Positions 1 to 19,679 of a stretch of 46,363 nucleotides of DNA are shown piece after piece. A model generated the notes under the pieces. That model was given only the letters and a program-made list of their open reading frames with translations. It did not search any database and was not told the origin of the DNA. Source of the DNA: Clostridia bacterium (lineage in GTDB: Bacteria; Bacillota; Clostridia; Oscillospirales; Acutalibacteraceae); contig JAGAQV010000010.1 in NCBI GenBank assembly GCA_017622555.1, forward strand, positions 1-46,363, in the 5' to 3' direction. The translations under genes and the position numbers were made by a program. Positions within the stretch are counted from its first letter, which is position 1. Each line of letters opens with the position of its first letter.

Positions 1-432
1 ATAAGCGAAGGCAGATCGCAGTCGAACAATCCTCGTTTCGTAACGGCTCTGCTATCCGCACTTTTTAGTTCACATAGCCTTTGTGAAGGGCTTTGTATAT
101 CACGACTTTTCCTACTATCATATTTCGGACCACTGTGTAAACGTGGGTTCTAATTTTTTACGGAAATCATAAAACCGAGCAACGTAATAGGTCGATTAAA
201 AATGTGTCGCCTATCTTCCATATATCACCCTGTCCGTCGCCGCAACCGTGATAGCTCTTTAGTTCCATATTTCCACTTCTTCGGTCCTACGGATAATCAG
301 CCTTAGAGCATCGGCTGATAAAGTCTAACCTGACTTTAAAGGTTTTCTGCTAGTGATTTACAGCCTGTCGCAGAATTCAGACTGTAGCTCTCGGCACCAA
401 TCCTTTGGTGCAACTAACTTCCCGTGTCACAC
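1..432 (-). mobile_element. Probable group II intron, 5' part (runs off the left edge)
   Basis: Read on the minus strand, the segment from 432 downward begins GTGTGACACGGG, which fits the GUGYG 5' end of bacterial group II introns. It continues as a long structured sequence without a good ORF, as expected of ribozyme domain I: short GC-rich helices, several GNRA-like loops and purine-rich joints. The intron-encoded reverse transcriptase and domains V/VI would lie to the left of base 1, so the identification cannot be completed here. The upstream exon is a leader with a promoter, an attenuator and a strong ribosome-binding site, so the intron seems to have landed just ahead of a start codon. 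It could also be another large structured RNA. Confidence 0.5.
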
Positions 433-449
433 AACAAAATTTTTAAAAA

Positions 450-458
450 CTCCTTCTT
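450..458 (-). promoter_or_regulatory. Orphan ribosome-binding site ahead of the intron
   Basis: The minus strand reads AAGAAGGAG here, an excellent Shine-Dalgarno sequence. No start codon of a long ORF follows at the usual distance. Instead the putative group II intron begins 18 bases downstream. The site probably served the gene controlled by the leader at 477-710, now separated from its coding region by the intron. Confidence 0.5.
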
Positions 459-479
459 AACTCCGCCACACGCCAATTT

Positions 480-662
480 TCAAACGTATCGACAGGAATA
501 TATTTGAACCTCATTTAGAGGAAACAAAACACCATAAAACAAAGAAAGACACCTATCACGAAAGATAAGTGTCTTTGTTTGCTTTATCGTAAGCCTTACG
601 AAAGAGCAAACCAATACACTTAACCTTCTCGGTTTAATGTATTTTTTGAATAACTCCTTCAT
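480..662 (-). CDS. Possible leader peptide of an attenuated gene
   Basis: A 60-codon minus-strand ORF beginning MKELFKKYIK, with start ATG at 662 shortly after a consensus promoter and with GAAGGAG overlapping the start region. Its codons run through two stable hairpins (about 577-650) and then the terminator at 545-576. This is the arrangement of short translated leaders that control antibiotic-resistance genes by attenuation. The peptide is basic and Cys/Phe/Leu-rich and I recognise no family. The part beyond the terminator stem is probably not meaningful, so the functional leader may be only the first 20-35 codons. It may not be a true gene. Confidence 0.3.
   Translation of the reverse strand: MKELFKKYIKPRRLSVLVCSFVRLTIKQTKTLIFRDRCLSLFYGVLFPLNEVQIYSCRYV
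530..576 (-). terminator. Intrinsic terminator / attenuator in the leader
   Basis: On the minus strand a 13-bp stem is formed by 564-576 (AAAGACACTTATC) and 545-557 (GATAGGTGTCTTT), with one U-G wobble and a 6-base loop. It is followed by a T-rich tract (CTTTGTTTTATGG). It lies between the consensus promoter and the orphan ribosome-binding site, so it would stop transcription before the downstream gene. Two more hairpins just upstream (arms near 612-650 and 577-609) could form alternative pairings. Confidence 0.65.
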
Positions 663-681
663 TATTTTAAAGCTCGTATAT

Positions 682-710
682 ATTATACTGTATAGACTTT
701 ACCTTGTCAA
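682..710 (-). promoter_or_regulatory. Consensus sigma-A promoter (leftward)
   Basis: Minus strand: TTGACA at 710-705, exactly 17 bases, then TATAAT at 687-682. Both boxes are perfect. Transcription would start near 675, a dozen bases before the leader ORF. Confidence 0.85.
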
Positions 711-733
711 ATTGCTTATTGGCCTCTTATTTT

Positions 734-763
734 CGATTACAAGCGATTAGAAGCGATTACAAG
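734..763. repeat. Three 10-bp direct repeats (operator-like)
   Basis: CGATTACAAG at 734-743, CGATTAGAAG at 744-753 and CGATTACAAG at 754-763, back to back. A period of 10 bp puts each copy on the same face of the helix, which suits a protein-binding array. It lies between two divergent promoters (682-710 leftward, 909-937 rightward). Confidence 0.7.
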
Positions 764-789
764 CGAAAAAGTGGTCGTTTTAATATCGG

Positions 790-844
790 TTTTGGTCTTT
801 TTATATACATTTTGATACCTTTTTTGGTCTTTATAAACATTTTG
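790..844. repeat. Two imperfect direct repeats of about 24 bp
   Basis: TTTTGGTCTTT-N-ACATTTTG occurs at 790-814 and again, with small differences, at 821-844, a spacing of about 31 bp or three helical turns. It is AT-rich and upstream of the rightward promoter of the gene at 971. It could be an operator or upstream activating sequence. Confidence 0.45.
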
Positions 845-908
845 TGAATTTTACTTTATACCTATAGAACCATATATAATAGAAATTATATAAATTTTTT
901 TAAAAATG

Positions 909-937
909 TCGACAAAACAAGAAAATTATGGTAAAAT
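909..937 (+). promoter_or_regulatory. Promoter of the DAC-like gene
   Basis: TCGACA at 909-914, a 17-base spacer, and TAAAAT at 932-937: five of six matches in each box. The start codon is at 971, leaving a leader of about 27 bases with AGGGG as ribosome-binding site at 961-965. Confidence 0.6.
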
Positions 938-970
938 ATTTTTAGCAAATACATAAAGTCAGGGGTTGCG

Positions 971-2356
971 ATGATGTCAACTAATTCAAAACGATTAAAT
1001 AATAATTTTGTCTCAGAGTATAAATTTTTCATAGAAACATATTTATTTCGTTTGCTTGGTATTGTAAATACAGAACTATCAACCGAAATTTATCCAATAG
1101 ACAATAAAAAAGATACCGTTGAGATGTTAGACAACAAGTTGTTATTTTTTATCGGCGGTTGGTGTGTTTTTAGCGTGGAAACGCACCAACAAATATCGAA
1201 CGATAACCTTAAATTAATTAGGCGCATCATCCAGTCTTTCATTCAAGTTTCTGAATATAAAAGAATCGGTTCAGGCAAAAACAATAGCTATTTCTCCAAG
1301 ACTCAAAGGAACACTGTTTTTTGTATGGCGGTTCAAAAAGGCATTTGCAGTTGGATTGGAGGCGATCCACAAAGTAATGCAATTGAAAAACTCTTCAACA
1401 AGTTGGAAACTTGGTCTGTAAAAACTTATGAAGGCAAAAAGGTCACACTAGGTTTTATTATTGATCCCAACGCCAATAATAAAAGTAAATCAAAACATGG
1501 AAATTGGATTGATTTTCTTGATGATGATTCTTCTGCCGTGTTCACTGATTGCATACATTCTGTAATAGAGTTAGATACAAACTGTAACTTTGTTAATTAT
1601 CGATCCATTTCTTCTACAAACAGTATAGCATCAGGGAAACTTAGTAACAGAATACCATTACGTTTTACACAAGTTATTCAAAAATATGTAACAGGTAAGA
1701 AATTTGGAATATTTTTATTGAATAACGGCGATATAATTTTAGCTCGGAATCAATCCGTTTGTTTTGTAAAAAGAAATCTACAGTGGTTAAATCTTAGTTA
1801 TGATGCATTTGCCGGAGCTCTTGATGATTTTATTTCAAGATATAGTGACGCCGAAAGTAAGCAACTGCTTTATAATTTAATAGAGAACATTTTTGCTTCT
1901 GTTTTAGATGTATCTTTTTCGCATGCAGGTGGTATTATTTCGATTGTTGGCGAATCCTGGCCAGGCTCAAAAGCAGATACCTCCGCTTCAACTCCAATAT
2001 TACATCCGTGCGATGATTTTCTAAATGATTACAATATTTCCTCAAAAGAAAGTGAAGAAATAAAACGCATTCAAAAACGGACTATCTTAACAAGATTAAC
2101 AAATAAAAAACATTTTTCTGAGATAGATAGAAAACTACGCAGTGAGTTAATCGCACTTGATGGCGCATGTATATTAAATTGTCGCGGGGAAGTAATTTCT
2201 TTTGGTGCTATTATTAGAAATGACAGTGGTTCTACTGGCGGCGGAAGAGGTGCCGCTGCGAAAAAATTATCGCAATATGGTATGGCAGTTAAAATTTCTA
2301 CAGATGGATACATTGAGTTGTATGTAGATGGAGAAAATATATATGCAATAAAGTAA
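971..2356 (+). CDS. Protein with a degenerate diadenylate-cyclase-like (DAC/DisA_N-fold) C-terminal domain
   Basis: A 461-residue soluble protein. The C-terminal about 75 residues follow the DAC pattern: LDGA near 396-399, then about 25 residues on, GGGRGAAAKK (423-432), then an alternating segment ending in TDGYIELY. In true diadenylate cyclases the second motif is RHRAA/RHRTA. Here the histidine and flanking arginine are replaced, so cyclase activity is doubtful. Families of DAC-derived sensor domains are known in bacterial conflict systems, and this may be one. I do not recognise residues 1-380. Start: ATG 971 (or the in-frame ATG 974) after AGGGG. The gene is monocistronic with its own promoter. 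It could sense a nucleotide signal, but that is inference. Confidence 0.55.
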   Translation: MMSTNSKRLNNNFVSEYKFFIETYLFRLLGIVNTELSTEIYPIDNKKDTVEMLDNKLLFFIGGWCVFSVETHQQISNDNLKLIRRIIQSFIQVSEYKRIGSGKNNSYFSKTQRNTVFCMAVQKGICSWIGGDPQSNAIEKLFNKLETWSVKTYEGKKVTLGFIIDPNANNKSKSKHGNWIDFLDDDSSAVFTDCIHSVIELDTNCNFVNYRSISSTNSIASGKLSNRIPLRFTQVIQKYVTGKKFGIFLLNNGDIILARNQSVCFVKRNLQWLNLSYDAFAGALDDFISRYSDAESKQLLYNLIENIFASVLDVSFSHAGGIISIVGESWPGSKADTSASTPILHPCDDFLNDYNISSKESEEIKRIQKRTILTRLTNKKHFSEIDRKLRSELIALDGACILNCRGEVISFGAIIRNDSGSTGGGRGAAAKKLSQYGMAVKISTDGYIELYVDGENIYAIK

Positions 2357-2395
2357 CTTCAGCTGCATATAATACTAATGAATTTCAAAAAACAC

Positions 2396-2424
2396 TTGAC
2401 ATATAAACGATGTTGTGTTATAAT
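2396..2424 (+). promoter_or_regulatory. Consensus promoter of a non-coding RNA
   Basis: TTGACA at 2396-2401, a 17-base spacer and TATAAT at 2419-2424, both perfect. Transcription should begin near 2431. No ORF follows, so the product is probably an RNA. Confidence 0.85.
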
Positions 2425-2430
2425 TTACGA

Positions 2431-2600
2431 AATTCACAAGGTAATACTGCGAGAGATCGTACGTATTAGATTACAAGAGCTGAGTCTTTTGTAAGCGAGG
2501 CAAGTTTGGACACTTGCACATTTTCTAAGTAAATAAACTTAGATCAAGACACCCATTGAGTTCTAGTTTTTAACTGACTATCAATGGGTGTTTTCGTTTT
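2431..2600 (+). ncRNA. Structured small RNA of unknown family
   Basis: About 170 bases between a perfect promoter and an intrinsic terminator, with no ATG-started reading frame. Four consecutive hairpins can be read: AATAC/GTATT around a GAGA-containing centre (about 2443-2468), ACAAGA/TCTTTTGT (about 2473-2493), CAAGT/ACTTG (about 2502-2517) and CTAAGT/ACTTAG (about 2525-2542), then the terminator stem. I do not recognise it as 6S, tmRNA, SRP RNA or a riboswitch. It follows the DAC-like gene in the same direction but has its own promoter. Confidence 0.6.
2549..2600 (+). terminator. Intrinsic terminator of the small RNA
   Basis: ACACCCATTGA (2549-2559) pairs perfectly with TCAATGGGTGT (2581-2591), and TTTCGTTTT follows. 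Confidence 0.85.
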
Positions 2601-2842
2601 ACATAGAAGGAAAGCTACAGCAAATCTGGTAGTTATAACTCTTTATAATATTTGTAATTGATTTATCTTTTCAGTTGTTTGGTCTTAAACAAAAAATTGC
2701 TATATATTTGTTATAGCCGATGTTCTTTATATGCCAAAAGTGCAATTTTTATATAGACTTCCGTTTGACCAATTCAACCTCGCATTTATTCTAAATGATC
2801 GTAAATATTTATCGTTGCACCAAAAGCCGAACTACTAACTAA

Positions 2843-3496
2843 TTAATTATTATATTTGCGTAATTTCACATACTGTAAATCATTAATCATTGACTCATAT
2901 TTCTGTCTTAATGTATCGAAACTTCGATAACAATATATTAATGCGCTCACAAAACCAATTATCAATAAAAGAAACATCGCGATACTTAACCAACTTAAAA
3001 AGTCAATCCCGATCACATCTAAATTCAAAAAAGAAGTTGATAAAACACCAGCTAAAGCTGTAAACAATGTGAAAATAATTTTATTTTTCTTCTTATCATC
3101 TTTGTTCTGTTTGTCTATGTATCCTTGATATTTGTTTATTAATATGTCGATTTTATTAGCAGAATCAATAGAAAACTCCGTTTTCAATATATCGTATAGT
3201 ATATCAATCTTTTTGTTGTATTCTTTTACATGTTGATAAGCATTAATTCTACGGTCTCTATTATCTAAAATCAAAAGTGTTAATACTGCAAGAACACAAA
3301 GAATTGATCCAAGCGGAAACCATACAGGATTTGGCAAGACAGTCATAAGCACTATCATTCCCAAAAACAGTAGTACCATTGAAATAAGTAATGATATAAC
3401 GATGATTTTCTTGCATTTTGAAAATCGGTTTATCCCTAATCGTATGCCTGCTTCTTTGTTCTTCCATTCATAAAATTTCATAATATAATATTCCAT
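2843..3496 (-). CDS. Four-TM membrane protein of unknown function
   Basis: 217 residues with two membrane hairpins: TM about 31-53 and 59-77, then TM about 139-158 and 166-188. A charged, Lys/Asp-rich stretch of about 60 residues (78-138) lies between them and looks helical. The tail after TM4 is also helical and charged. Start ATG 3496 has AAAGGAG seven bases upstream. The layout recalls membrane effectors of bacterial conflict systems such as the SLATT type, but I see no diagnostic motif, so this is only a comparison. It sits downstream of two tiny genes, separated from them by a hairpin terminator. Confidence 0.7.
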   Translation of the reverse strand: MEYYIMKFYEWKNKEAGIRLGINRFSKCKKIIVISLLISMVLLFLGMIVLMTVLPNPVWFPLGSILCVLAVLTLLILDNRDRRINAYQHVKEYNKKIDILYDILKTEFSIDSANKIDILINKYQGYIDKQNKDDKKKNKIIFTLFTALAGVLSTSFLNLDVIGIDFLSWLSIAMFLLLIIGFVSALIYCYRSFDTLRQKYESMINDLQYVKLRKYNN

Positions 3497-3511
3497 TTTT
3501 ATTCTCCTTTC

Positions 3512-3547
3512 AAAATAAAATGGCAGAGGAAGGAAGTTCCTCTGCCA
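3512..3547 (-). terminator. Intrinsic terminator after the zinc-ribbon gene
   Basis: An 11-bp perfect stem (TGGCAGAGGAA at 3521-3531 with TTCCTCTGCCA at 3537-3547), followed on the minus strand by TTTTATTTT (3520-3512). It lies directly ahead of the ribosome-binding site of the four-TM gene. Confidence 0.7.
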
Positions 3548-3558
3548 ACGCTTACTAA

Positions 3559-3699
3559 TTATCTAACTTTATAGTATGTTGTCTTATGACACTTAGGACA
3601 AGGTGGAAGTGTATCTGTATTATCATCAAGAACAACTTCGGTTCCACAATACAAACACTTATAAGTGCCTTTGCCCGGCTTTTCACCAGTAGTATACAT
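3559..3699 (-). CDS. Small zinc-ribbon protein (46 aa)
   Basis: A 46-codon ORF starting at ATG 3699, with AAAGGAGG about nine bases upstream. The protein has two CxxC knuckles, YKCLYCGTEV and PPCPKCHKT, spaced as in rubredoxin-like zinc ribbons, plus a short basic tail. Such mini-ribbons often act as nucleic-acid-binding or regulatory proteins, but no substrate can be read from this sequence. It follows the basic 39-residue gene by about 40 bases on the same strand. Confidence 0.75.
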   Translation of the reverse strand: MYTTGEKPGKGTYKCLYCGTEVVLDDNTDTLPPCPKCHKTTYYKVR

Positions 3700-3740
3700 T
3701 GCCAGTCCTCCTTTCAAGATTAATTTGTGCTTTAACAGGT

Positions 3741-3860
3741 TCAGTTAGGTGTAGACCTACGATGGCCCCCAACTTTTGTCCCATCAGACCTTTTGTACGG
3801 CTTTACGGGGACAATTTTCTTTTGAGGCTTACCTCTGACGCTTGACTTTGTTTTTGCCAT
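3741..3860 (-). CDS. Tiny basic protein (39 aa)
   Basis: A 39-codon ORF starting at ATG 3860, with AAGGAA upstream. It begins MAKTKSSVRGK and is strongly basic. Its second half, PYKRSDGTKVGGHRRS, matches a motif I know from phage and mobile-element proteins (P-Y-x-R-x-DGT-x-V-x-G-H-x-RS), usually at the end of longer virion-associated proteins. Here it stands alone, followed by the zinc-ribbon gene. Function unknown. Confidence 0.6.
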   Translation of the reverse strand: MAKTKSSVRGKPQKKIVPVKPYKRSDGTKVGGHRRSTPN

Positions 3861-3930
3861 AGCTAAAAATTTCCTTCCCTGACGGCGCACTTTTAATCTT
3901 GAAGTCATTGACAAATCAGATTTTTTGTGT

Positions 3931-3960
3931 TAACATACTTTATACAGCTTAGGTATGTTA
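3931..3960. promoter_or_regulatory. 8-bp inverted repeat, probable operator
   Basis: TAACATAC (3931-3938) and GTATGTTA (3953-3960) form a perfect inverted repeat with a 14-bp gap. It lies between the tiny minus-strand genes and the ImmA/XRE pair, in the expected promoter region of the tiny genes. The XRE regulator at 4551-4910 is the natural candidate to bind it. Confidence 0.45.
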
Positions 3961-3990
3961 CGGGTTCAACCGTCAATATTCCCTATTTGT

Positions 3991-4021
3991 AAGAGAGCGT
4001 CTTTATGAGAGATGCTCTCTT
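3991..4021. terminator. Hairpin after the ImmA gene
   Basis: AAGAGAGC (3991-3998) pairs with GCTCTCTT (4014-4021). An AT-rich run follows on the plus strand and none on the minus strand, so it is a weak terminator for the leftward immA gene or a plain hairpin. Confidence 0.4.
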
Positions 4022-4035
4022 ATTTTATATAACGC

Positions 4036-4554
4036 CTAAGCGATATATTTAAGAGCAATTTCTGCAGACTTCAATGAAGTTTTGCATGCTAATGCTACTT
4101 GCTCCGCAGTCATACCAGTTATCAAATTCTTACTCATTAAGAATTCCGATGCAAAAACATTCGCCTGCCATTCAGGGTCTCTAAATGTAGGAACCGTAGC
4201 GTTTTTAGGACATCTTGAAAACGCTGTTACATCATCGTGAATAAAATAGTGACCAAGTTCGTGTGCTACTGTAAATCGATGCCTAGGGTCATCAGAACAA
4301 GCAGCTATATATACATCTTGACGTATGCTCAATGTGTTTGTCTGTGGACAGTAGTTTGCATACTCATTGTTCATTTCCCCTTCATATGTGGTGTCCAGCT
4401 GAAATGAAGGGTCAAGCGTAGGTATTACGTGCTCTACGATTTTCATTATGGGCACATACAAACATTCACCTATATTTAGTTGATATCGTACATAGTTTGC
4501 AAACTGTTCAATGGTTCGCCTGCTAAGCGGCGGTGCCATTAGGGGTAAATTCAT
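4036..4554 (-). CDS. ImmA/IrrE-family metallopeptidase
   Basis: 172 residues with the zinc-protease motif HELGH (in FTVAHELGHYFIH, near 94-98) and the conserved downstream region that places the third ligand (NVFASEFLM). ImmA-type proteases cleave a partner XRE repressor and so switch on mobile-element genes. The partner lies immediately upstream: its stop codon overlaps this ATG (ATGA), indicating translational coupling. Similar repressor-protease pairs control ICEBs1 and occur in the Bacillus skin element, which fits the location here. Confidence 0.9.
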   Translation of the reverse strand: MNLPLMAPPLSRRTIEQFANYVRYQLNIGECLYVPIMKIVEHVIPTLDPSFQLDTTYEGEMNNEYANYCPQTNTLSIRQDVYIAACSDDPRHRFTVAHELGHYFIHDDVTAFSRCPKNATVPTFRDPEWQANVFASEFLMSKNLITGMTAEQVALACKTSLKSAEIALKYIA

Positions 4555-4910
4555 TTATTAGAGACCTCCAATATTTTTTTGATTTCCTCAATTTGTGCAT
4601 TGTTGAGATTATTAAATTTTCTTGCAAAAGAAATGCATAAATCTCGTTGTGTAGCAGTGGCATTTTTGGTGCACAAGTTAACTTCATCAAGGGTTTCAAA
4701 AAAAGCTGCGTTAAGTTCTAATAGTTGTGCTTCAGTTAATTTATAACTATCAGCGATATTGTTAATGAGCTTTTTTGTTGCAGACCTTTTACCATTTTCA
4801 ATTGATGATAAATATGCAGGGGCAACATTCAGCTTGTCAGCCATATCCTTTAATAATTCACCTTGTTGTATACGGAATGTGCGTAAAAACTTGCCTAAGC
4901 TTGTCAACAT
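4551..4910 (-). CDS. XRE-family repressor paired with ImmA
   Basis: Start placed at ATG 4910 because GAAAGGAAG lies just upstream; the longer reading from 4946 has no ribosome-binding site. The 119-residue protein has an N-terminal helix-turn-helix (FLRTFRIQQGELLKDMADKL, then APAYLSSIENGKR) and a C-terminal helical region. It is co-transcribed and coupled with the ImmA-type peptidase. It probably represses element genes, with the inverted repeat at 3931-3960 and its own promoter as candidate targets. Confidence 0.85.
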   Translation of the reverse strand: MLTSLGKFLRTFRIQQGELLKDMADKLNVAPAYLSSIENGKRSATKKLINNIADSYKLTEAQLLELNAAFFETLDEVNLCTKNATATQRDLCISFARKFNNLNNAQIEEIKKILEVSNK

Positions 4911-4936
4911 AGCAATCTTCCTTTCTGTTTGATAAT

Positions 4937-4965
4937 ACGATACCATATTGCTTACGATTTGTCAA
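4937..4965 (-). promoter_or_regulatory. Likely promoter of the XRE-ImmA operon
   Basis: Minus strand: TTGACA at 4965-4960, a 17-base spacer, then TATCGT at 4942-4937. The -35 is perfect and the -10 weak, as is common for regulated promoters. Confidence 0.5.
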
Positions 4966-5430
4966 CAGTTTTTTTAATAAATATTAACTTTTTTGTTAAT
5001 ATCAAAGTTTGGGTTGGCATAACGCTGAAACTAAACATAATTATAGTTTTTTAAACAAATTTGAAATCACTATTCTAAAACTTCTCCAATAATATCAATA
5101 TTGTCGATAGTGTTTGCTAACTTTAATATAATTTTACAACATAAAAGACATCGCACGGAGCAATGCCTAAATACTTTTTCGTAATATTTATTTTATATCG
5201 ATTGAGTAGTTCCTTTGGATAGAATAAATATTGAAACATATTGGTTAAAAATCATATAAATATTAGTTACTTTAATTAAACCGTCGCTATATTCAAGAGT
5301 AATTACCATTGAGTCATTAAACAAACTCACTTAAATAAATATTTGGATTTTCATTAATCAAAATACTTTTAGGACTCTGACCTCTGTGCTATGTATATTG
5401 TATCAAAAAATGGATTATAAGTATTTTATT
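4966..5430. other. AT-rich non-coding gap
   Basis: About 465 bases without a plausible ORF on either strand. I see no RNA gene, no strong hairpin with a T-run and no clear repeat. Confidence 0.5.
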
Positions 5431-6108
5431 TTATAATTGCGTTTTGAATCTGTGATAGGCGTATCCAGGATTTGATGTTGTGTATTTAGACAAACAGCTA
5501 CAATTCAAAGAACATTTCCTAACGTTTACCGGAACACGAATACCTATTATGTTCAGAGATGATTCTATACTTTCTTTAGCTTTATTTAACAACTCTATAT
5601 GTTCCATTCCCGGATCGTCTATTACAATTTCCTCTAAATAGTTAAAAGGCAATGGTACACTAATATTTCTAACGGTAATATGCTTATTAAAATCACCTTT
5701 TGAAAAGCCAAAAAGTATTTCTTGTTCACTACTAAAATATTTTTCATTATCTTGCATTCCGTCTTCCCAATAAATCGGATTATCTCTGGTAATGCAAATA
5801 TCGTATTCTGTCAGCGTATCTAAAACATCTACGGAATAAACAAACATAACCGGACCATAATCATTAGGACGCTTTGCTCTGTCGTGTATATCTACAGAAT
5901 CGAAAAATATGTCATTGTATATACCAAATTCTCTATCAATATCGTCCGAGCTTTGGGGTGTTTGTGGAACGCCCATGATTTCTGCTGTTTGGCGTGATAA
6001 AAGACCGCCTTGATTAATAAACGAGAGAGAAGTTACAACAGTATTAACATGATATAACTTATCTACTCCAGAATTAATCAGACTTCTTTTGACTTGTAAA
6101 GCATTCAT
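5431..6108 (-). CDS. Unknown protein, possibly ADP-ribosyltransferase-fold (DarT/DUF4433-like)
   Basis: 225 residues, soluble. The N-terminal pattern LYHVNTVVTSLSFINQGGLLSR resembles the first strand and NAD-contacting region of DarT-like and related ADP-ribosyltransferase folds (hydrophobic-YH-x-T, then a helix ending in G-G-L-L). The next block, YNDIFFDSVDIHDR, then YGPVMFVYSVDVL, looks like the strand that follows. The expected catalytic glutamate is not obvious. Start ATG 6108 has AAAGGGG seven bases upstream. The gene follows the Ig-like surface protein by 15 bases, so the two are probably co-transcribed. It might be a toxin, an immunity factor or a nucleotide-handling protein; the assignment is tentative. 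Confidence 0.4.
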   Translation of the reverse strand: MNALQVKRSLINSGVDKLYHVNTVVTSLSFINQGGLLSRQTAEIMGVPQTPQSSDDIDREFGIYNDIFFDSVDIHDRAKRPNDYGPVMFVYSVDVLDTLTEYDICITRDNPIYWEDGMQDNEKYFSSEQEILFGFSKGDFNKHITVRNISVPLPFNYLEEIVIDDPGMEHIELLNKAKESIESSLNIIGIRVPVNVRKCSLNCSCLSKYTTSNPGYAYHRFKTQL

Positions 6109-6123
6109 TTTATTACCCCTTTA

Positions 6124-7263: not shown

Positions 7264-7461
7264 TTATCTCACCATAATTACAATAATATAGTAACGATCC
7301 AACTTCTCAATTTTCAAATGGGCATAATGCCCAATACAATCTTGTTATTTAAGAATACATATTCATTTTGAGAGTATTTTTATTCACTCACACATAATTT
7401 AAAACCTTATTAATTTTTTAAAGTATAATATCTTTTATAATATCTTTCATAATGATTTTCA

Positions 7462-12394: not shown

Positions 12395-14638
12395 TTATGT
12401 ATAACTTAATGTTGCCTCGTCATCCTCAAAATCTTCCACAGCTGATTCAGGCATTATTTCTGCCTTACTATCAACTATGAAATTGCCTTGCTGCATTTCC
12501 CACAGTCTATAATATTTGCCTTGTTTTGCAATAAGTTCATTATGGGTGCCGCACTCTGCTATTTCGCCGTTTTCAAGAACTATGATTTTGTCGCAATTTT
12601 TTACAGTAGAAAGCCTGTGTGCTATTATAAGCATTGATTTGCCTTTAAACTTATTATAAATCATATCAAATATTATATTTTCTGTTGCAAAATCAAGGTT
12701 ACTTGTGGATTCGTCAAGAATGTAGAAATTATTCTTTTTAAGGAAAGCCCTGGCGAGTGCAATTCGTTGTTTTTCGCCTCCCGAAAGACCGTTTCCCGCC
12801 TCTTCAAGATATGTATAGTATTGCATAGGCAACTTTCGTATAAACTCGTGCGCATCAGCCGCTTTTGCCGCTTCTTTTACTTCTTCAAGAGTTGCGGACA
12901 TTTTTGAAACACGTATATTATCATAAATGCTTTTTGAAAATAATTCAATATTCTGTGGAACATACGAAATAGCACGACGTAGGGAATGGTTGGTATATTC
13001 CTCAATGTCAACACTGTCAATCGTAATTTCTCCACTTTCGGGTTTATAGTATTTTAAAAGCAGTTTTGCAAGGGTAGATTTACCGCTACCTGAAGAACCT
13101 ACAACCGCTACCTTTTCACCTTCTTTTATTTCAAAGCTAATATTATTGAGTACAGGCTTGCGGTTCCCGTAACGGAATGTGATATTTTTGATCTCAATAT
13201 CACCGTTTATCGCTTCTATATCGCTATACAAACCTTTGCTTTCAATATCCTGTTCTCTTTCATAATCAAGAATTTCAGATATTCGTTTCATAGAAATATT
13301 AGCTTCCTGTATGGTAAGCTGAAGTTCTACCAACCTACCTATTGGGTCCATAAAATAACCTGAAAGCGTTGTAAATGCCATCATAGTTCCAAGTGTAATA
13401 TCACCGTTTATCACCTGCATAATACCTAAATAAGTAAGAAGCAGGTTACCTAATGTAGAAATAAAGCCCGAAATTAATCCTTGAATATTAGATAAATGAC
13501 CTTCTTTTAGCCCGATTCGCAAGGATTTTATATATTCTTTTTCTATGTTTTCAAGTTCAGTATCCTCATTGGCATTGCCCTTTATGGTTTCTACGGCACG
13601 CAAACCTTCAATGATTTGTGAATTAAGAACAGATGCTTGCTGCATTTGCTCCTCATTTATTTTTTTATAAGGCTCTTTAAATAGCAATACAAGTAAAACA
13701 CTTAATATAGTCATAAATAAAATAACAACAAAAAGCGAAGTATTCATTTTAAATAGTATTACACCCGTAATAAGCGCCATTGTAATATCTATAATTAAAG
13801 TCAATGCAATATTTGTAAATATATCTTTAATTGTAAAAGCATCTGAAAATCTTGTTGTTATATCTCCGGTTCTTCTTGTAGAAAAGAATTTCATAGGTAG
13901 CTTATATATATGCTCAAAATATCCAAGCATAAGCGGTATATCAATTTTAATTGACAGATGAATCATCATCCATTGTCTTATAAAACCAACAACTATTTGA
14001 GTAATGCTGATTCCAGCAAATACAATAAGCACCATTTTCAAAGTGTTAACCTGACTGTAAGGTAATATTTCATCATATATTACACTGTTAATCAGCGAGG
14101 AGATTATACCGAAAACGGTGAGCAAAAGCGAAGCGATAATACCATAAATAAATAGCTTTTTTTGCGGAAGTAAAAGTCTTATATACCTATCTAAAACCTT
14201 TTTACCCTTGTTTTTTTGAGTGACAAATCGCTCATCAGGTTTTAATATTAGCAAAACACCGGTGAACTGTTTATAAAACTCATCCACCGGAATACGCATT
14301 AAATCCTTTGCAGGATCACCAACAACAACATATTTTTTTGTCTTTTTAAAAACTACAACAAAATGGCTTAATCCCTCTTTGGTTATTATATTAGCTATGG
14401 CCGGAAGTGTAAAATCACTTAAAAATCCCTCCTTATCAACTCGCACTGCCTGTGAAACAAAACCAAGTTGATCCGCACATTTTGACAAACCTATAAGATT
14501 CGTTCCTTTAATATCTGTTCCCATCATATCTCGCAACTTGGTTATGGTGGTTTCTTTTTTGTAATGCAAGCTTACCATTGCAAGACAAGCTGCGGCACAA
14601 TCTGTTATATCATGCTGCTTAACAAATGTATATTTCAC
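12395..14638 (-). CDS. Bacteriocin ABC exporter with N-terminal C39 peptidase (PCAT)
   Basis: 747 residues starting at GTG 14638, after AAAGGAGG with six bases spacing. Residues 1-130 are the C39 peptidase: catalytic Cys14 in DITDCAAACLAM, the histidine in GLSHFVVV and the aspartate in VGDPAKD. A six-TM domain (about 150-440) follows, then a nucleotide-binding domain with Walker A GSSGSGKST, signature LSGGEKQR, Walker B FYILDES and the H-loop IIAHRLST. It removes the double-glycine leaders and exports the peptides. All elements look intact. It is the first gene of the leftward cluster. Confidence 0.95.
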   Translation of the reverse strand: MKYTFVKQHDITDCAAACLAMVSLHYKKETTITKLRDMMGTDIKGTNLIGLSKCADQLGFVSQAVRVDKEGFLSDFTLPAIANIITKEGLSHFVVVFKKTKKYVVVGDPAKDLMRIPVDEFYKQFTGVLLILKPDERFVTQKNKGKKVLDRYIRLLLPQKKLFIYGIIASLLLTVFGIISSLINSVIYDEILPYSQVNTLKMVLIVFAGISITQIVVGFIRQWMMIHLSIKIDIPLMLGYFEHIYKLPMKFFSTRRTGDITTRFSDAFTIKDIFTNIALTLIIDITMALITGVILFKMNTSLFVVILFMTILSVLLVLLFKEPYKKINEEQMQQASVLNSQIIEGLRAVETIKGNANEDTELENIEKEYIKSLRIGLKEGHLSNIQGLISGFISTLGNLLLTYLGIMQVINGDITLGTMMAFTTLSGYFMDPIGRLVELQLTIQEANISMKRISEILDYEREQDIESKGLYSDIEAINGDIEIKNITFRYGNRKPVLNNISFEIKEGEKVAVVGSSGSGKSTLAKLLLKYYKPESGEITIDSVDIEEYTNHSLRRAISYVPQNIELFSKSIYDNIRVSKMSATLEEVKEAAKAADAHEFIRKLPMQYYTYLEEAGNGLSGGEKQRIALARAFLKKNNFYILDESTSNLDFATENIIFDMIYNKFKGKSMLIIAHRLSTVKNCDKIIVLENGEIAECGTHNELIAKQGKYYRLWEMQQGNFIVDSKAEIMPESAVEDFEDDEATLSYT

Positions 14639-14760
14639 TAAAAAACCTCCTTTACAAAGCGGTGTACATCTTTGTAATTGTATATTAATATGTAGGTTTT
14701 TTCTTGACGGGTGGGAGTTTTTTGTCGAAAAATCGGAGTATTATGTAAAATACATCGTAT

Positions 14761-14789
14761 ATTATATCAAAAAGCGCACATAATATCAA
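14761..14789 (-). promoter_or_regulatory. Promoter of the bacteriocin operon
   Basis: Minus strand: TTGATA at 14789-14784, a 17-base spacer, then TATAAT at 14766-14761. The exporter start is about 115 bases downstream of the expected transcription start. Confidence 0.75.
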
Positions 14790-14828
14790 CTTATAGATTA
14801 ATATTTAATTTATAGGTCAATTCTAAAA

Positions 14829-14852
14829 TTAAGTTATAACTGTTATACTTAA
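14829..14852 (+). promoter_or_regulatory. Palindromic operator overlapping the -10 of the XRE gene
   Basis: TTAAGTTATAAC-TG-TTATACTTAA is an imperfect palindrome that includes TATACT (14844-14849), a plausible -10 of the rightward XRE gene starting at 14867. The position suggests autorepression by that XRE protein. It is also close to the divergent bacteriocin promoter. Confidence 0.5.
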
Positions 14853-14866
14853 CTTGGTGATGGAAT

Positions 14867-15199
14867 ATGTTGGATTATAAAGCAATAGGCAGACGAATAA
14901 GTCTATATCGTAAAAAAATTCACATGACACAATCGAAATTATCCGAAAAATTAGATATCTCAGAAAGTTATGTAAGTCAAATTGAGTGCGGAGCTACAAA
15001 AGTTGCCCTTTCAAGACTTGACGAAATAGCCGAGATTTTAGGAGTTGACATAGTGTGTCTACTCTCTGATAGAGTTTTAAACCATGATGTCCCTGTTAAT
15101 TCAGAAATTTGTGAGATTATTAAAAATTGGGACAAGGATAAGGTCGATTTATTAATAAAATTACTTGCATGCGCAGAGGAAAATTTCACAAGCAAATAA
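14867..15199 (+). CDS. XRE-family regulator of the bacteriocin locus
   Basis: 110 residues with an N-terminal helix-turn-helix (HMTQSKLSEKLDISESYVSQIE, about 19-41) and a small helical C-terminal part. It is divergent from the exporter, with about 230 bases between the starts, and is followed by its own terminator. Likely targets are the palindrome over its own -10 and the neighbouring bacteriocin promoter. Proteins of this size are often SinR/phage-repressor-like; no effector domain is visible. Confidence 0.85.
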   Translation: MLDYKAIGRRISLYRKKIHMTQSKLSEKLDISESYVSQIECGATKVALSRLDEIAEILGVDIVCLLSDRVLNHDVPVNSEICEIIKNWDKDKVDLLIKLLACAEENFTSK

Positions 15200-15203
15200 T
15201 AAA

Positions 15204-15235
15204 GCGGCCCACAAAAAGTGGACCGCCTTATTATT
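15204..15235 (+). terminator. Intrinsic terminator after the XRE gene
   Basis: GCGGCCCAC (15204-15212) pairs with GTGGACCGC (15218-15226), one internal mismatch, followed by CTTATTATTT. Confidence 0.75.
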
Positions 15236-15268
15236 TAGTAAAAAAGTCTTAGTAAAGCTCTTAGAAAA

Positions 15269-15326
15269 TATAACATAAAACTATTTCCTTTCTTTGTTTT
15301 TTATGTTATAAATTAAAGAAAGGAAA
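15269..15326. promoter_or_regulatory. Two interleaved 12-bp inverted repeats (pseudoknot-like)
   Basis: TATAACATAAAA (15269-15280) pairs with TTTTATGTTATA (15299-15310). TTTCCTTTCTTT (15284-15295), inside that loop, is the exact reverse complement of AAAGAAAGGAAA (15315-15326) outside it. The loop of hairpin 1 can therefore pair with sequence after hairpin 1, the topology of an H-type pseudoknot or of mutually exclusive hairpins. It lies about 50 bases ahead of the LytTR regulator gene. Confidence 0.6.
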
Positions 15327-15378
15327 AATCATACATATCTTGGAGTATGGTGTATAAAATTTGGAGGTATCTGGGAAA

Positions 15379-16086
15379 ATGCAGATTGCTATTTGTGATG
15401 ACGACAGCTTTTTTCGTAGTCAATTAAAGGATATTCTTATTAAATACAAATCAGAAAAAAGAGTCCATATTGATATATTCGAATTTGAAAGCGGTGAAAG
15501 TTTTCTTGCAGACAGTACCGTTTGGGATGTTGTTTTTATGGACTATCAAATGAATGGATTAGATGGGCTTGAAACTGCTCGTATTTTAAGAAAGAAAAAT
15601 CCTATTTGCAGTATAATTTTTATAACAGCTTACCCCGAATTTATACTTGAATCCTTTGAAGTTCAGCCGTTTAGATTTATGTTAAAGCCCATGGAGGATA
15701 AAAAAATATACGATGCTTTAAATGACTACATAAAGCAACAAAAGCTTCTCTATCCACTGATAATAGTTGAAGACGGAGAACAAAAAACCGTCAACTCTCA
15801 GGATATTTTATACCTTGAAGGTGACGGAAAATATTGTATTGTTCGAACATCAAAGGACACTATTCATAGTTCAAAGACAATAGCTCAAGTATATAAACTG
15901 TTACCGGAACATTGCTTTTATCGAGTACATAAGTCATACGTGGTTAATATGTATTGCATTGATAGTTTTAAAAATAATATAATAACACTCAATAATGGCG
16001 AAGTGGCAGTTATTGGTAGAAATCATATTGCTGAGTTTAAAAGGGTATATATGAATTTTGTAAAAAACTATTATGTGAGGTTATAA
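15379..16086 (+). CDS. LytTR response regulator (AgrA-like)
   Basis: Start taken at ATG 15379 (MQIAICDDD); GGAGG lies upstream and a TTG at 15361 is less likely. 235 residues: a receiver domain with acidic pocket D7-D9, phosphoacceptor Asp55 (VVFMDYQMNG) and LKPM lysine, then a LytTR DNA-binding domain (about 135-230) with the conserved FYRVHKSYVVN block. Such regulators bind paired direct repeats; the GCTAAC pairs upstream of precursors 1 and 2 are candidates. The kinase gene follows after two bases. Confidence 0.93.
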   Translation: MQIAICDDDSFFRSQLKDILIKYKSEKRVHIDIFEFESGESFLADSTVWDVVFMDYQMNGLDGLETARILRKKNPICSIIFITAYPEFILESFEVQPFRFMLKPMEDKKIYDALNDYIKQQKLLYPLIIVEDGEQKTVNSQDILYLEGDGKYCIVRTSKDTIHSSKTIAQVYKLLPEHCFYRVHKSYVVNMYCIDSFKNNIITLNNGEVAVIGRNHIAEFKRVYMNFVKNYYVRL

Positions 16087-16088
16087 TA

Positions 16089-17375
16089 ATGCCATTTTTA
16101 CTAGTATTAGAAACACTTGTATATTATATTTGCCTTATATTTATTTCAGTTAAAATATTAGACGGGGTTTTACATAAATTAAGTATTGCTCTGTCTTTTT
16201 TTGTGTATATACCTGTATTATTTGCATGGGAAAATTTACAAGAATCATCACAACTTTTATTAGTTCTCGCACTTTTAATTTTTCAGGTTGTATTTTTAAA
16301 ATTCAGCTCTAAAGGTTTGAATTTTGTTTCACTTGTTTATTCTTTTTTATTGGTTTTTTGTATGAATTCTATTATAAATTCAATTTTGATTTCATTTATA
16401 TCAATAAACAATAAAAGTGATATAATTATTGAAATCATAATACATTTTTTATTTATTATTTGTTGCGCTATTCTCTGTCTGTCTAAGGTTCGGTACAAGA
16501 TTAAAAGTATTATAAATTGGACTCCCATGAATATTAAAGGAATAGTTTTGTCTATTGTTATTATTGGTGCTTTGCTAACCGCATTAATACTTGATATGAA
16601 AAGCCAAACGCAAAGTGTGATTTTATACTTTACTAGATTGTTTATGATTTTGATACTTTTGGTTTGCACAACATTTCCGATAATGATATTAAATGCTACG
16701 ACAAATACATATCTAAAGAAGTTAACTCATGATTACGAGGAACAAATAAAGGCACAGGCTGAACATTATTCCGCCTTAGCAAAAGCTAATTTCGAACTTA
16801 GAAGATTTCAACATGACTTTAAAAATATTAAGGTTGGAGTAAGCAAGTTAATAGCCGAAGAAAGACTGACCGAGGCTATGAGTATGCTTGATAGCACCCA
16901 TGAAGATATTTACAATACGACCCATTCTTTATTATGCTTTGATACGGGTAATGGTATAGTTGATGCCTTGCTTGCAGATAAACAGCGCAACGCTGCTCTA
17001 TCAAATATCAAAATTAAATTTGAGGGTGCTGTGCCATCAAATAGCATATCGGCTACGGAATTATGTGTGTTATTTGGCAATACAATTGATAACGCGATAG
17101 AAGCATGTGAAAAAATTGATATTGAAAATGAAAAAATAATTAATATTACCTGCAAGTGCAACAGCAATTTTATGTTTTTAGATATCACCAATCCGGTAAG
17201 TAAGCCCATTGCAATTAAAAATAACACTCTTGCTACTACAAAAGCTGATAAAACTCTCCATGGTTTTGGATTATATTCCCTTGATCAAATTGTAAGAAAA
17301 CATAACGGAGAACTTAATTTGTCTTGCGATAACTACGAATTTAAAGTTAATATCAGTATGTTTGTTAAAACCTAA
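16089..17375 (+). CDS. GHKL-family sensor histidine kinase (AgrC/HPK10-like)
   Basis: 428 residues. The N-terminal half is a multi-helix membrane sensor (about six TM segments within 1-200), followed by a short coiled region and the phosphoacceptor His242 in RRFQHDFKN. The ATP-binding part has the N-box FGNTIDNAIEAC and a GFGLYSLDQIV G-box. Kinases of this class sense secreted peptides. No agrB/agrD pair is present, so the signal may be one of the double-glycine peptides exported by this locus, which is inference. Confidence 0.92.
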   Translation: MPFLLVLETLVYYICLIFISVKILDGVLHKLSIALSFFVYIPVLFAWENLQESSQLLLVLALLIFQVVFLKFSSKGLNFVSLVYSFLLVFCMNSIINSILISFISINNKSDIIIEIIIHFLFIICCAILCLSKVRYKIKSIINWTPMNIKGIVLSIVIIGALLTALILDMKSQTQSVILYFTRLFMILILLVCTTFPIMILNATTNTYLKKLTHDYEEQIKAQAEHYSALAKANFELRRFQHDFKNIKVGVSKLIAEERLTEAMSMLDSTHEDIYNTTHSLLCFDTGNGIVDALLADKQRNAALSNIKIKFEGAVPSNSISATELCVLFGNTIDNAIEACEKIDIENEKIINITCKCNSNFMFLDITNPVSKPIAIKNNTLATTKADKTLHGFGLYSLDQIVRKHNGELNLSCDNYEFKVNISMFVKT

Positions 17376-17524
17376 AAACACTAAATTAAGTTTCACATCA
17401 AAGTTCAAAATACGGTTCATAAAACCCGATAGATGTAACTATACCAATTTGTCACCTTTACAATCTCGTTACTTTATGATATACTACTATATAGAATATA
17501 TCACGAAGCCTAAGGGGGATGTTT

Positions 17525-19360
17525 ATGAAGAATACGTCTAATGTAATAGCCATTTATTCACGAAAATCTAAATTCACAGGCAAGGGTGAAAGTATCGGAA
17601 ATCAGGTGGAACTTTGCCGTGAATACATACGAACTCATTACGGTGATGAAGCCGCAGAGAAAGCGGTAGTATTTGAAGACGAAGGTTTTTCGGGTGGAAA
17701 CGTCAACCGACCTGCCTTTAAAAAAATGATGGCTCATATTGAGCGTGGAGAATTTAAGGCACTTGTGGTTTACCGTCTTGACCGTGTTAGTCGTAATGTC
17801 AGTGACTTTTCATCACTTATCGAAGACCTCAACCGCCGAGATATAGTTTTTGTGTCTATCCGTGAGCAGTTTGATACGGCAACGCCGATGGGCAGAGCAA
17901 TGATGTATATTGCCTCTGTATTCGCACAACTTGAACGTGAAACCATTGCCGAGCGTATCAGAGATAATATGCACGAATTGGCAAAAACAGGCCGATGGCT
18001 TGGCGGCAATACACCTACGGGCTATTGCAGCGAAAGTGTTAAAAGTGTTACGGTTGACGGCAAAACCAAAAAAGCTTGTAAATTAAAACTTATTCCCGAA
18101 GAAGCCGAGACCGTAAAACTTATCTTTGATTTGTTTATTAAAACAGGCTCTTTAACACTTACCGAGGCAGAGCTGATACAGCGTAGAATAATGACGAAAA
18201 ACGGCAATCACTTTACTCGATTCTCAATAAAATCCATACTGCAAAATCCTGTATATATGATTGCAGATGAAGAAGCTTACGAGTTTTTCAAACTAAAAGA
18301 TGCAGATCTATTTTCGTCAAGAGAAGAATTTGACGGTGTTCACGGAATCTTGGCATACAACCGTACCGACCAAGAAAAAGGCAAAGCCACAGTTTACAAC
18401 CCTGTCAGTGATTGGATTGTTTCGGTTGGTAAGCATCAAGGTATTATCCCCGGCAAGATTTGGGTAGGTGTTCAGGATAATCTTGAACGAAACAAATCAA
18501 AATCCTTCCGCAGACCAAGAAGAAACGAAGCCTTACTTACTGGCCTTTTGTTCTGCTCTTGCGGCAACCGAATGTACCCCAAGCTCTCTAAACGAAAAAC
18601 TGCTGACGGTGAAATCATATATACCTATGTCTGCAAGATGAAAGAGCGTAGCAAAAAAGACCTTTGCAATAAGCGTAATGCAAACGGTAACACATTAGAC
18701 CTTGCGGTTATTGAGAAAATCAAGCAACTCGCATACGAAAAAAGTGATTTTGTCAAGCAGCTTGAAAAAAGTAAGATTTTCTACACAGGCAATCGTGAGC
18801 AGTATGAGCAGAAGTTAAGTACGATGAAAAAAGAAAAAGCCGACCTTGAGAAAAAGGTCAGCTCACTCATAGACACACTTGCTGAGTTAGATGATAATTC
18901 AGCAAAAAAATCAATAGTCGCCCGTATTAACGATATGAATACTGAAATTGATAAAATCTCACAGGGCATTGACGAAATGATAAGTCTTACCGCCGAACAC
19001 GCTTTCAGCGATATTGAGTTTGACGTGCTTCGTCAGATGCTGGGCGTTTTCAAAAACACTATTGATGATATGTCCTACGAACAAAAGAGAGCCGCCATTC
19101 AAAGTATTGTACGCCGTGTAATTTGGGATGGCGAAAATGCACACGTTATTTTATTCGGTTCGCAGGACGGTGATATTGAACTACCCGATATCACACCTTA
19201 CATAAAACACATTGAAATAGAATCGGAAGAAGACGAAGAACTCATTGAGTTTTCGGACGTAGATTACGACGAAGATACTACTGAGGATTTTGGTCGTCAT
19301 ACTAAAACCGATTTGTGTGAGGATAGCAAACGAAATTTTAATGTTTTTCAGAAGCCTTAA
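17525..19360 (+). CDS. Large serine recombinase of the sigK-intervening element (SpoIVCA-like)
   Basis: Start taken at the second ATG, 17525, since AAGGGGG would be too close to the first at 17519. 611 residues: a resolvase domain with catalytic Ser12 (AIYSRKSK), an arginine-rich active site (VYRLDRVSRN; RETIAERIRDN), a recombinase domain (about 165-290), a zinc ribbon (CSCGNRMYPK ... CKMKERSKKDLC) and a coiled-coil region. Its last codons overlap the sigK 3' half in another frame. That is the expected position of the enzyme that excises a skin-like element in the mother cell to rebuild sigK. I found no clear sporulation-sigma promoter. Confidence 0.9.
   Translation: MKNTSNVIAIYSRKSKFTGKGESIGNQVELCREYIRTHYGDEAAEKAVVFEDEGFSGGNVNRPAFKKMMAHIERGEFKALVVYRLDRVSRNVSDFSSLIEDLNRRDIVFVSIREQFDTATPMGRAMMYIASVFAQLERETIAERIRDNMHELAKTGRWLGGNTPTGYCSESVKSVTVDGKTKKACKLKLIPEEAETVKLIFDLFIKTGSLTLTEAELIQRRIMTKNGNHFTRFSIKSILQNPVYMIADEEAYEFFKLKDADLFSSREEFDGVHGILAYNRTDQEKGKATVYNPVSDWIVSVGKHQGIIPGKIWVGVQDNLERNKSKSFRRPRRNEALLTGLLFCSCGNRMYPKLSKRKTADGEIIYTYVCKMKERSKKDLCNKRNANGNTLDLAVIEKIKQLAYEKSDFVKQLEKSKIFYTGNREQYEQKLSTMKKEKADLEKKVSSLIDTLAELDDNSAKKSIVARINDMNTEIDKISQGIDEMISLTAEHAFSDIEFDVLRQMLGVFKNTIDDMSYEQKRAAIQSIVRRVIWDGENAHVILFGSQDGDIELPDITPYIKHIEIESEEDEELIEFSDVDYDEDTTEDFGRHTKTDLCEDSKRNFNVFQKP
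19323..19343 (+). other. Putative attachment/crossover site at the sigK junction
   Basis: The sequence ATAGCAAACGAAATTTTAATG encodes IANEILM. The homologous part of sigma-K and of this genome's own sigma-E (CIENEILM, near 131-138 of the 44610-45302 gene) starts exactly at NEILM, with unrelated residues before it. In Bacillus the skin crossover is at the same NE codons (AATGA). The true crossover is therefore probably within about 19326-19336; the matching left site is outside the window. Confidence 0.65.
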
Positions 19361-19679
19361 AAAGAATTCACAGGAGGTTTTTATAAGCGACCCTATAGAC
19401 ACTGACGGTCAAGGAAATGCCTTAACCCTTATTGACGTTATTGCCGACAAAAGTGACATTGTTGAAGAACTTGATACAAAATTAAAGCTTCAAAAACTGC
19501 GGCTTATAATAAACGGTGCTTTAGATGAGCGTGAGCTAGAAATTATAAGGTATCGTTACGGTATTGGTGGTTACCCCGAGCTTACTCAGCGTGATATTGC
19601 TAAAAAACTCGGCATTTCGCGTAGCTATGTATCACGAATAGAAAAATCCGCCTTAGAAAAACTAAGACGGAGGTTTTAA
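19329..19679 (+). CDS. sigK: Sigma-K, 3' half (interrupted gene, SpoIIIC-like)
   Basis: About 116 codons homologous to the C-terminal half of sporulation sigma-K: NEILMFFRSLKK, DPIDTDGQGN then TLIDVI, and a complete region 4 with ELTQRDIAKKLGISRSYVSRIE. There is no start codon of its own for a functional protein; the open frame merely continues upstream to 19290. Promoter-binding region 2 should be encoded by the missing 5' half beyond the left window edge. After excision of the element the halves would be joined into a gene for mother-cell sigma-K. Its stop touches the stop of the convergent gene at 19680. Confidence 0.9.
   Translation, partial: NEILMFFRSLKKNSQEVFISDPIDTDGQGNALTLIDVIADKSDIVEELDTKLKLQKLRLIINGALDERELEIIRYRYGIGGYPELTQRDIAKKLGISRSYVSRIEKSALEKLRRRF

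Follow-up and report, generated by a model that had tools for sequence, protein, structure and literature searches.

A skin-type element in the sigK gene of a Clostridia bacterium combines a putative bacteriocin locus with a recombinase gene predicted to be split by its own att site

Introduction

Contig JAGAQV010000010.1 of the Clostridia bacterium assembly GCA_017622555.1 (C2; 46,363 bases, analysed complete and referred to here as the window) belongs to a 1.6-Mb genome in 31 contigs, estimated to be 98.93% complete. Its left end holds genes for small peptides, peptide export and regulation, followed by a large serine recombinase (LSR) gene that runs into the 3′ half of sigK, the gene for sigma-K. 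On its sequence, this stretch is the right-hand part of a sigK-intervening (skin-type) element that splits sigK at the Asn codon of the motif RCIENEILM (Table 1).

Interruption of sigK is usually told from a few model species; here it is linked to a recombinase group found in many Clostridia. An earlier reading of the window from its letters alone (the original prediction) had proposed a skin-like element carrying a bacteriocin locus. Beyond that, we describe a split recombinase gene and an apparent exchange of cargo between species. The larger result is that a widespread group of sigK elements appears to have a recombinase–helix-turn-helix (HTH) gene the product of which would depend on the state of the element.

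Results

Two complementary halves of sigK

The sigK 3′ half starts at the Asn codon AAC with N-E-I-L-M, exactly where the original prediction had placed it, as confirmed by its frame and by a genome search, and the recombinase open reading frame (ORF) does overlap it as proposed. Used as a query against the whole genome, the 3′ half matched itself, SigE (C2:44628-44972, 39% identical) and one weaker sigma factor. The 5′ half was found as one of eight Sigma70_r2 matches in the genome, in a 151-amino-acid frame on the plus strand of contig C16 (10,217 bases; C16:7347-7535), where ...LATYAARCIEN is followed by ATLTQMSFW... up to a stop codon (junction RCIEN|ATLTQ).

The left junction reads TGTATTGAAAA|TGCAACC and the right junction GATAGCAAA|CGAAATT, with the AA of the Asn codon common to both; when the two halves are joined at this codon, with AA as the core, they give sigma-K in frame, as had been foreseen. 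The original prediction also supposed that the genome holds no intact sigK elsewhere, and none was found with the 3′ half as query or among the eight Sigma70_r2 matches, on which grounds a second copy was judged unlikely. The element halves of the two attachment (att) sites, that in the window and C16:7523-7552, together form a predicted attP that is palindromic around its central AA at 14 of 16 arm positions (maximum of 11 in 500 shuffles). Joining of the sigK halves was tried on 21 elements. Alignment at the Asn codon placed both ends in 19 of them, the sigK 3′ half not being obtained for the other two (G398 and L117); the sigK halves were complementary in all 19.

The left part of the element would occupy C16:7523-10217 (2,695 bases) and the right part 19,330 bases of the window. 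No exact overlap exists between the ends of C16 and C2, and neither the last 200 bases of C16 nor the first 450 of C2 match anything in the genome except themselves. In a congener, G001, contig C27 carries the sigK 5′ half and ends in 95 bases identical to C1:780-874, C1 being the contig with the LSR and sigK 3′ half. The end of C16 aligns with G001 C27 until about 190 bases short of the end of C27, and C2:467-559 is 94% identical to that end; if our element is collinear with that of G001, the gap between C16 and C2 is probably small and the whole element about 22 kb. The split layout is not an assembly artefact, because both halves share one contig in relatives: four genomes, G215, G169, G386 and G316, with element sizes from 11 to 22 kb, and 11 of the LSR loci described below, with sizes from 3.6 to 11 kb. 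The original prediction that the 5′ half lies to the left of base 1 on the same strand thus finds support in the matching halves and the layout of relatives, while the half itself sits on another contig of the assembly.

A recombinase group found beside sigK

Relatives of the LSR were found in 430 genome stretches, of which the best 80, selected by the LSR, were retained as loci. In 73 of these, a sigK 3′ half adjoins the LSR on the same strand; among the remaining seven, it lies further off in L086 and L093, and no sigK 3′ match was found in L092, L100, L111, L115 or L117. The right end of the element, GAGGATAGCA, is exact in 57 of the 75 loci with both an LSR and a sigK 3′ half, and the Asn codon at the junction is AAT in 60 and AAC in 15 of them. 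Hosts include many Clostridia, with one match named Holdemania and one Traorella. The recombinase group thus appears to be a sigK specialist present in many Clostridia.

Searches of plasmid and phage records returned six plasmid relatives of the LSR (E 1e-60) and one phage relative (E 1e-40); the sigK 3′ half was absent from the four stretches examined out of these seven records. One relative, on the megaplasmid of Ruminococcus albus 7 (L236 3980-5850; 47.5% identical), has an end that resembles the att core, and the stretch examined holds no sigK half. In two loci, the sequence after the LSR holds a sigK 5′ half in the reverse orientation (L115 11756-12022 and L163 9686-9988), which may represent a second layout that places the recombinase at the element's left end. 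In genomes named Faecalibacterium longum and Gemmiger (L120, L138, L091, L094), genera usually called non-spore-forming, the LSR adjoins a sigK-like 3′ half that is 36-43% identical to that of the window.

Reading frames on either side of the predicted attP

The window LSR has Resolvase, Recombinase and Zn-ribbon domains, all above cut-off. The predicted attP lies inside the recombinase gene, and integration is predicted from sequence to truncate the C terminus of the LSR. When the element was closed into a circle in silico, the LSR (613 amino acids in the integrated state) continued for 200 codons through the 192-amino-acid HTH ORF that lies beside the sigK 5′ half.

Of the 75 loci that have an LSR as well as a sigK 3′ half, 53 show an LSR that terminates at a TGA whose T is the third base of the Asn codon (AAT GAA), a stop that belongs wholly to sigK; the frame continues into sigK in 14 and stops earlier in eight. 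Among the 73 LSRs with a sigK half within 3 kb, 69 meet the att site in one common frame, the other frames being used by three and one. LSR tail length took 28 values, from 17 to 130 codons, across the 66 loci measured with the motif pattern.

A homologue of the HTH protein, 30-56% identical to that of the window element, stands at the left end in 14 of the 19 elements with both ends placed, and in 13 of these 14 the HTH is in the frame of the LSR, with no stop between it and the junction. The most telling case is G215, in which the LSR meets the att site in a different frame and the HTH is shifted likewise. A chance fusion of the LSR and HTH ORFs was judged unlikely. Pfam places one HTH domain in the protein from our genome and two in those of L232, L234 and L211.

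When an HTH profile was run against 391 genomes of the class, eight of its ten matches, our own genome included, had an HTH immediately preceded by a sigK 5′ half. A scan of viral contigs with the single HTH protein found nothing; the same scan with an alignment found four left ends, two in sigK (L234, L235), with the HTH frame open from the sigK junction, and two in another context (L232, L233). No LSR was found in the stretches examined around these four. In L232 and L233, the HTH left end around position 6001 has no sigK 5′ half nearby, which could reflect either a different insertion site or a rearrangement. In another viral contig, L188, a single native ORF of 703 amino acids combines recombinase, zinc-ribbon and HTH_3 domains; we claim no attP in its linker, where a palindrome scored 12 of 18 positions and the shuffle maximum was 14.

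Sister elements in related genomes

Contigs binned to two congeners, G001 and G028 (C18), carry the same element backbone. Their LSRs are 97% identical to that of the window, while their sigK 3′ halves are only 65% and 59% identical to it, respectively. This strongly indicates horizontal movement; recent transfer into the same site in diverged hosts is the most economical reading of an LSR so similar beside sigK halves so different. The three sister elements bear three different peptide-type clusters: besides the locus in the window, the G001 element encodes two radical-SAM/SPASM proteins, an NTP_transf_5 protein, AgrB, a kinase and a regulator, and the G028 C18 element encodes a radical-SAM protein, an S8 peptidase and an NTP_transf_5 protein. 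By our reading of these protein families, the latter two clusters may produce ribosomally synthesised and post-translationally modified peptides.

Across 36 genomes of the same genus, the sigK frame spans at least 204 amino acids in 30, is split in G001 and is partial in G017; no match at the level of sigK was found in four. In another congener, G088, the frame of the sigK 5′ half is short, and a sigK 3′ half follows an LSR of 52% identity. G028 has an intact sigK on C26 (L147) in addition to the element-bearing 3′ half on C18 (L046), and C18 has perhaps been mis-binned. The contigs of all three sister elements begin near the start of the conserved, little-coding stretch at 16-853, in which an Rfam search found nothing above cut-off, all matches lying far below. 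In the left part of our element, an insert of about 205 bp (C16, L041, around 9147-9352) with the look of a miniature inverted-repeat transposable element lies inside a tyrosine recombinase ORF and is absent from G001.

Peptide cargo of the window element

The cargo resembles bacteriocin loci with C39 exporters and LytTR regulation, which typically comprise double-glycine precursors, a peptidase-containing exporter, an HlyD-like protein and a two-component system. The components are the same; the window locus differs in its long mature peptides, in its location on a sigK element and in that no pheromone peptide was identified for the kinase/regulator pair. The three precursors share the leader MEMCYNG(T/A)LVMPSNYA(V/I)VNDNEMEYV(E/Q)GG, precursor 3 probably starting at an internal MEMCYNG. 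Bacteriocin_IIc (PF10439) matches two of the three, both below cut-off, and the third has no family match; precursor 3 also gives a weak, sub-threshold glycine-zipper match. By eye, the upstream regions of two precursor genes are near-identical. A scan of nine regions in front of the peptide genes for direct repeats of the LytTR type gave one match, unconvincing against shuffles.

It is plausible that the locus encodes double-glycine bacteriocins. Of the multi-peptide bacteriocin system originally proposed, the exporter, the HlyD-like protein, the three leader peptides, the regulator and the kinase were all placed as implied, and the immunity proteins are candidates, one of the four (9913..10428) having been scanned against protein families. 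The proposed quorum regulation is in keeping with the LytTR regulator and GHKL kinase and stays conjectural, no relative of the G001 AgrB having been found in window positions 1-19330 or on C16.

Close relatives of the exporter (E 1e-120) occur in one of 70 genomes of the genus, our own, with up to 15 candidates scored per genome. The C39-exporter cargo is not general among the elements, because tblastn with the C39 domain found no match in the other element flanks examined (up to 10 kb).

Table 1. Features of the element and of its sporulation context in the window.
Feature	Position	Strand	Evidence or remarks
Right-hand part of skin-type element	1..19330		att junctions; homology to G001 contigs
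Backbone stretch, mostly non-coding	16..853		Common to G001 (304-853, 90%) and G028 (16-691, 85%)
461-amino-acid protein	971..2356	+	No Pfam match
Hydrophobic backbone protein	2843..3496	-	97% identical in G001; Pfam matches sub-threshold only
ImmA/IrrE-type Peptidase_M78 backbone protein	4036..4554	-	98% identical in G001
HTH_3 regulator, backbone	4551..4946	-	97% identical in G001
Protein with Big_2 Ig-like domains	6124..7263	-	C-terminal hydrophobic segment by eye
Precursor peptide 1	7727..8107	-	Double-glycine leader MEMCYNGTLVMPSNYAVVNDNEMEYVEGG; no family match
HlyD-type accessory export protein	8235..9386	-	PF13437 above cut-off; TIGR01000 below cut-off
Small protein, candidate immunity protein	9913..10428	-	Hydrophobic by eye; no match in Pfam scan
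Small protein, candidate immunity protein	10441..10671	-	Hydrophobic by eye
Small protein, candidate immunity protein	10886..11155	-	Hydrophobic by eye
Precursor peptide 2	11210..11590	-	Double-glycine leader nearly as in peptide 1; Bacteriocin_IIc match weak at 17.5 bits (cut-off 27.1)
Small protein, candidate immunity protein	11725..11955	-	Hydrophobic by eye
Precursor peptide 3	11940..12380	-	Near-same leader; Bacteriocin_IIc 25.8 bits, E 1.1e-5 (cut-off 27.1)
C39-peptidase ABC exporter	12395..14638	-	TIGR01193 582.5 bits (cut-off 523.85); PF03412 114.1 bits (cut-off 22)
HTH_3 regulator	14867..15199	+	
LytTR response regulator	15361..16086	+	
GHKL histidine kinase	16089..17375	+	AgrC equivalog model far below cut-off (46.5 of 500)
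LSR	17519..19360	+	Frame crosses att site without own stop; overlaps sigK 3′ half
Element half of right att site	19301..19330	+	With C16:7523-7552 forms predicted attP
sigK 3′ half	19329..19679	+	From Asn codon AAC; frame N-E-I-L-M-F-F
SigE	44610..45302	-	Named from position beside SpoIIGA; sporulation context
SpoIIGA	45307..46164	-	PF03419; sporulation context

Discussion

The anatomy of the element, the complementary sigK halves and the frame coupling across lineages can be read directly from the sequences. They are very likely best explained by a mobile skin-type element with the layout known from Clostridioides difficile, an exchangeable peptide cargo and a recombinase–HTH gene that depends on the state of the element. 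From these we infer excision and its timing, bacteriocin activity and a role for the HTH protein. The LSR would insert the element at the Asn codon of RCIENEILM, with AA as core. By analogy with known skin elements, the recombinase, probably together with a directionality factor, would remove the element from the mother cell and restore sigK, and the spore would keep it, as the original prediction supposed for the window. In the integrated state, the recombinase would terminate at the junction or shortly beyond it, on the TGA of sigK in most relatives; in the free circle, its frame would run into the HTH, giving a recombinase–HTH fusion. The fusion would then be the free or incoming form and the truncated protein the resident form. 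The HTH ORF immediately follows the sigK 5′ half, could be co-transcribed with it and is a candidate directionality factor or regulator. Only a free circle could give rise to the fusion. Such a circle would be present in the mother cell, which is dying, and, of more weight for selection, in a new recipient; most likely, the fusion regulates the incoming element. A search of viral contigs for circles, as evidence of the excised state, gave no circle with LSR plus HTH from sigK elements.

Several observations weigh against this explanation. In our assembly the sigK halves stand on two separate contigs that are not joined, and the homology to G001 describes a branch rather than an end-to-end join, G001 C1 running for 779 bases to the left of the 95-base match on another path. 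No directionality factor was identified in the element, CD1234 not having been sought by sequence. The left end is without an HTH in five of the 19 elements (L080, L086, L114, L116, L123), and in the exception to the frame agreement, L078, the LSR has its own stop and the HTH is a remnant; because of these cases, the fusion cannot be essential to all elements. The HTH carries a frameshift in L075 and L095 and lacks a part in L071 and L068, and G398, which stands outside the count and has no sigK 3′ half, has an HTH with an internal stop after 52 codons. G132, G106, G215, G169, G386, G316 and G398 were picked for the presence of an HTH, and the lineages are related, so the 13 agreements in 14 are not 13 independent events. 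A fusion made from the mother-cell circle would be made in a dying cell, and selection would have to act through transfer or some other state. As for the cargo, a single precursor of the three (precursor 3) comes near the cut-off of a bacteriocin family.

The frame coupling could instead be a by-product of the target site: the LSR frame might be kept through the att site merely because the conserved core leads to a handy stop in sigK, the HTH match being inherited or accidental. Use of exactly this stop in 53 of 75 loci would fit such an account, as would the missing HTHs, three of which accompany an LSR frame that is still open to the junction (L080, L116, L123). We consider it unlikely, given that HTHs of just 30-40% identity stay open and in the LSR frame from the junction, that the LSR of G215 uses another frame and its HTH has shifted in the same way, and that the viral contig L188 provides a native single-ORF LSR–HTH protein. 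A different constraint on the HTH frame at the junction would arise if, in the integrated state, translation of the HTH began within the sigK 5′ half, in a frame other than that of sigK; an ATG within sigK does open the HTH frame in G386 and G316 (MYRK|C..). In our own genome, however, that frame meets a stop within sigK a little short of the junction (ATG TAT TGA), junction sequences inspected by eye have a stop there too in L207, L209, L131 and L068, and frame-keeping by the LSR on the other side is left unexplained, all of which makes this alternative improbable.

It is more improbable still that sigK is dead, with the element a decaying insertion that is no longer excised in a lineage that no longer sporulates. 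The small genome (1.6 Mb), from a fragmented assembly, and the tyrosine recombinase of the element, which is in two pieces, would suit such decay; against it, Spo0A, SpoIVA, SigE and SpoIIGA are all present in the genome, the LSR and the two halves of sigK have open frames, and the halves fit each other exactly. The doubt about the cargo is of another kind, and about as strong as that raised by the handy stop: the peptide locus may be a signalling or contact-dependent export system that uses the same type of leader and exporter. Its Bacteriocin_IIc matches are sub-threshold only, the mature parts are long and the immunity gene is not certain; yet TIGR01193, a model for peptide cleavage/export transporters, scores above cut-off, three precursors with a near-same double-glycine leader stand alongside small hydrophobic proteins, and precursor 3 gives the weak glycine-zipper match, so that we still prefer a double-glycine bacteriocin locus.

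The closest counterpart in layout is the skin element of C. difficile, which likewise lies in sigK, has its serine recombinase gene next to the 3′ part of sigK on the upstream side, and rebuilds sigK when excised (PMC5025042). Integration there takes CD1231 alone, and excision takes CD1231 together with CD1234 (PMC5025042). The window element differs in its bacteriocin-like locus and perhaps also in a recombinase frame that crosses the att site toward an HTH (PMC5025042). The skin element of Bacillus subtilis (spoIVCA/skr) is also a sigK-intervening element with a large serine recombinase, but is another recombination unit, with its attB elsewhere in sigK than that of C. difficile (PMC6957869). 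The original prediction had the window element at the codons where the skins of both Bacillus and Clostridioides interrupt sigK; this cannot hold for both, since, according to the excerpts available, their attB sites lie in different regions of the gene (PMC6957869).

Prophages also occupy sigK in Clostridium tetani (PMC5553647), in some strains of Clostridium botulinum and Clostridium perfringens (PMC5025042) and in Alicyclobacillus (PMC13141910). For C. tetani, the accessible text describes phage structural genes and does not mention bacteriocin cargo (PMC5553647), nor is such cargo mentioned in the corresponding excerpts for the others (PMC5025042, PMC13141910). SPbeta in spsM offers a precedent for the cargo: excised at sporulation, it restores a split sporulation gene and carries the bacteriocin sublancin 168, although, by the excerpts of that account, it is a 134-kb phage in another gene, with one glycocin and an attP between sprA and sprB, outside the recombinase gene (PMC8270828). 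The suggestion that a bacteriocin is new as skin cargo therefore survives for sigK, where we found none described, and has to be qualified by sublancin and SPbeta (PMC8270828). The closest published principle that we found for the split gene is the integration-dependent immunity of mycobacteriophage BPs, in which, as the available excerpts describe it, attP lies inside a regulatory gene and integration shortens the protein C-terminally; that gene encodes a repressor and the tail is a degradation tag, whereas here a recombinase and an HTH protein are concerned (PMC4557955). Within the available parts of the open-licence papers searched, we found neither a bacteriocin in a sigK skin element nor a recombinase–HTH gene split by its own att site.

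Taken more broadly, we lean towards a view of widespread sigK elements that would sense their own state through a split recombinase, the HTH tail regulating entry, expression or re-integration, and that would shuttle antimicrobial-peptide clusters between spore-forming gut species while being removed from the mother cell. The coupling of the LSR and HTH frames suggests a testable way for a mobile element to tell whether it is integrated, and the group is a source of numerous serine integrases for which the att sites, with AA as core, are defined.

SigE, encoded further along the window beside SpoIIGA, has the same RCIENEILM motif as the target site in sigK, which raises the question of how the recombinase picks sigK over sigE. 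The flanking chromosome in the window also encodes three structured RNAs: a T-box leader (28499-28735), RNase P RNA (34812-35144) and tRNA-Lys (44164-44239).

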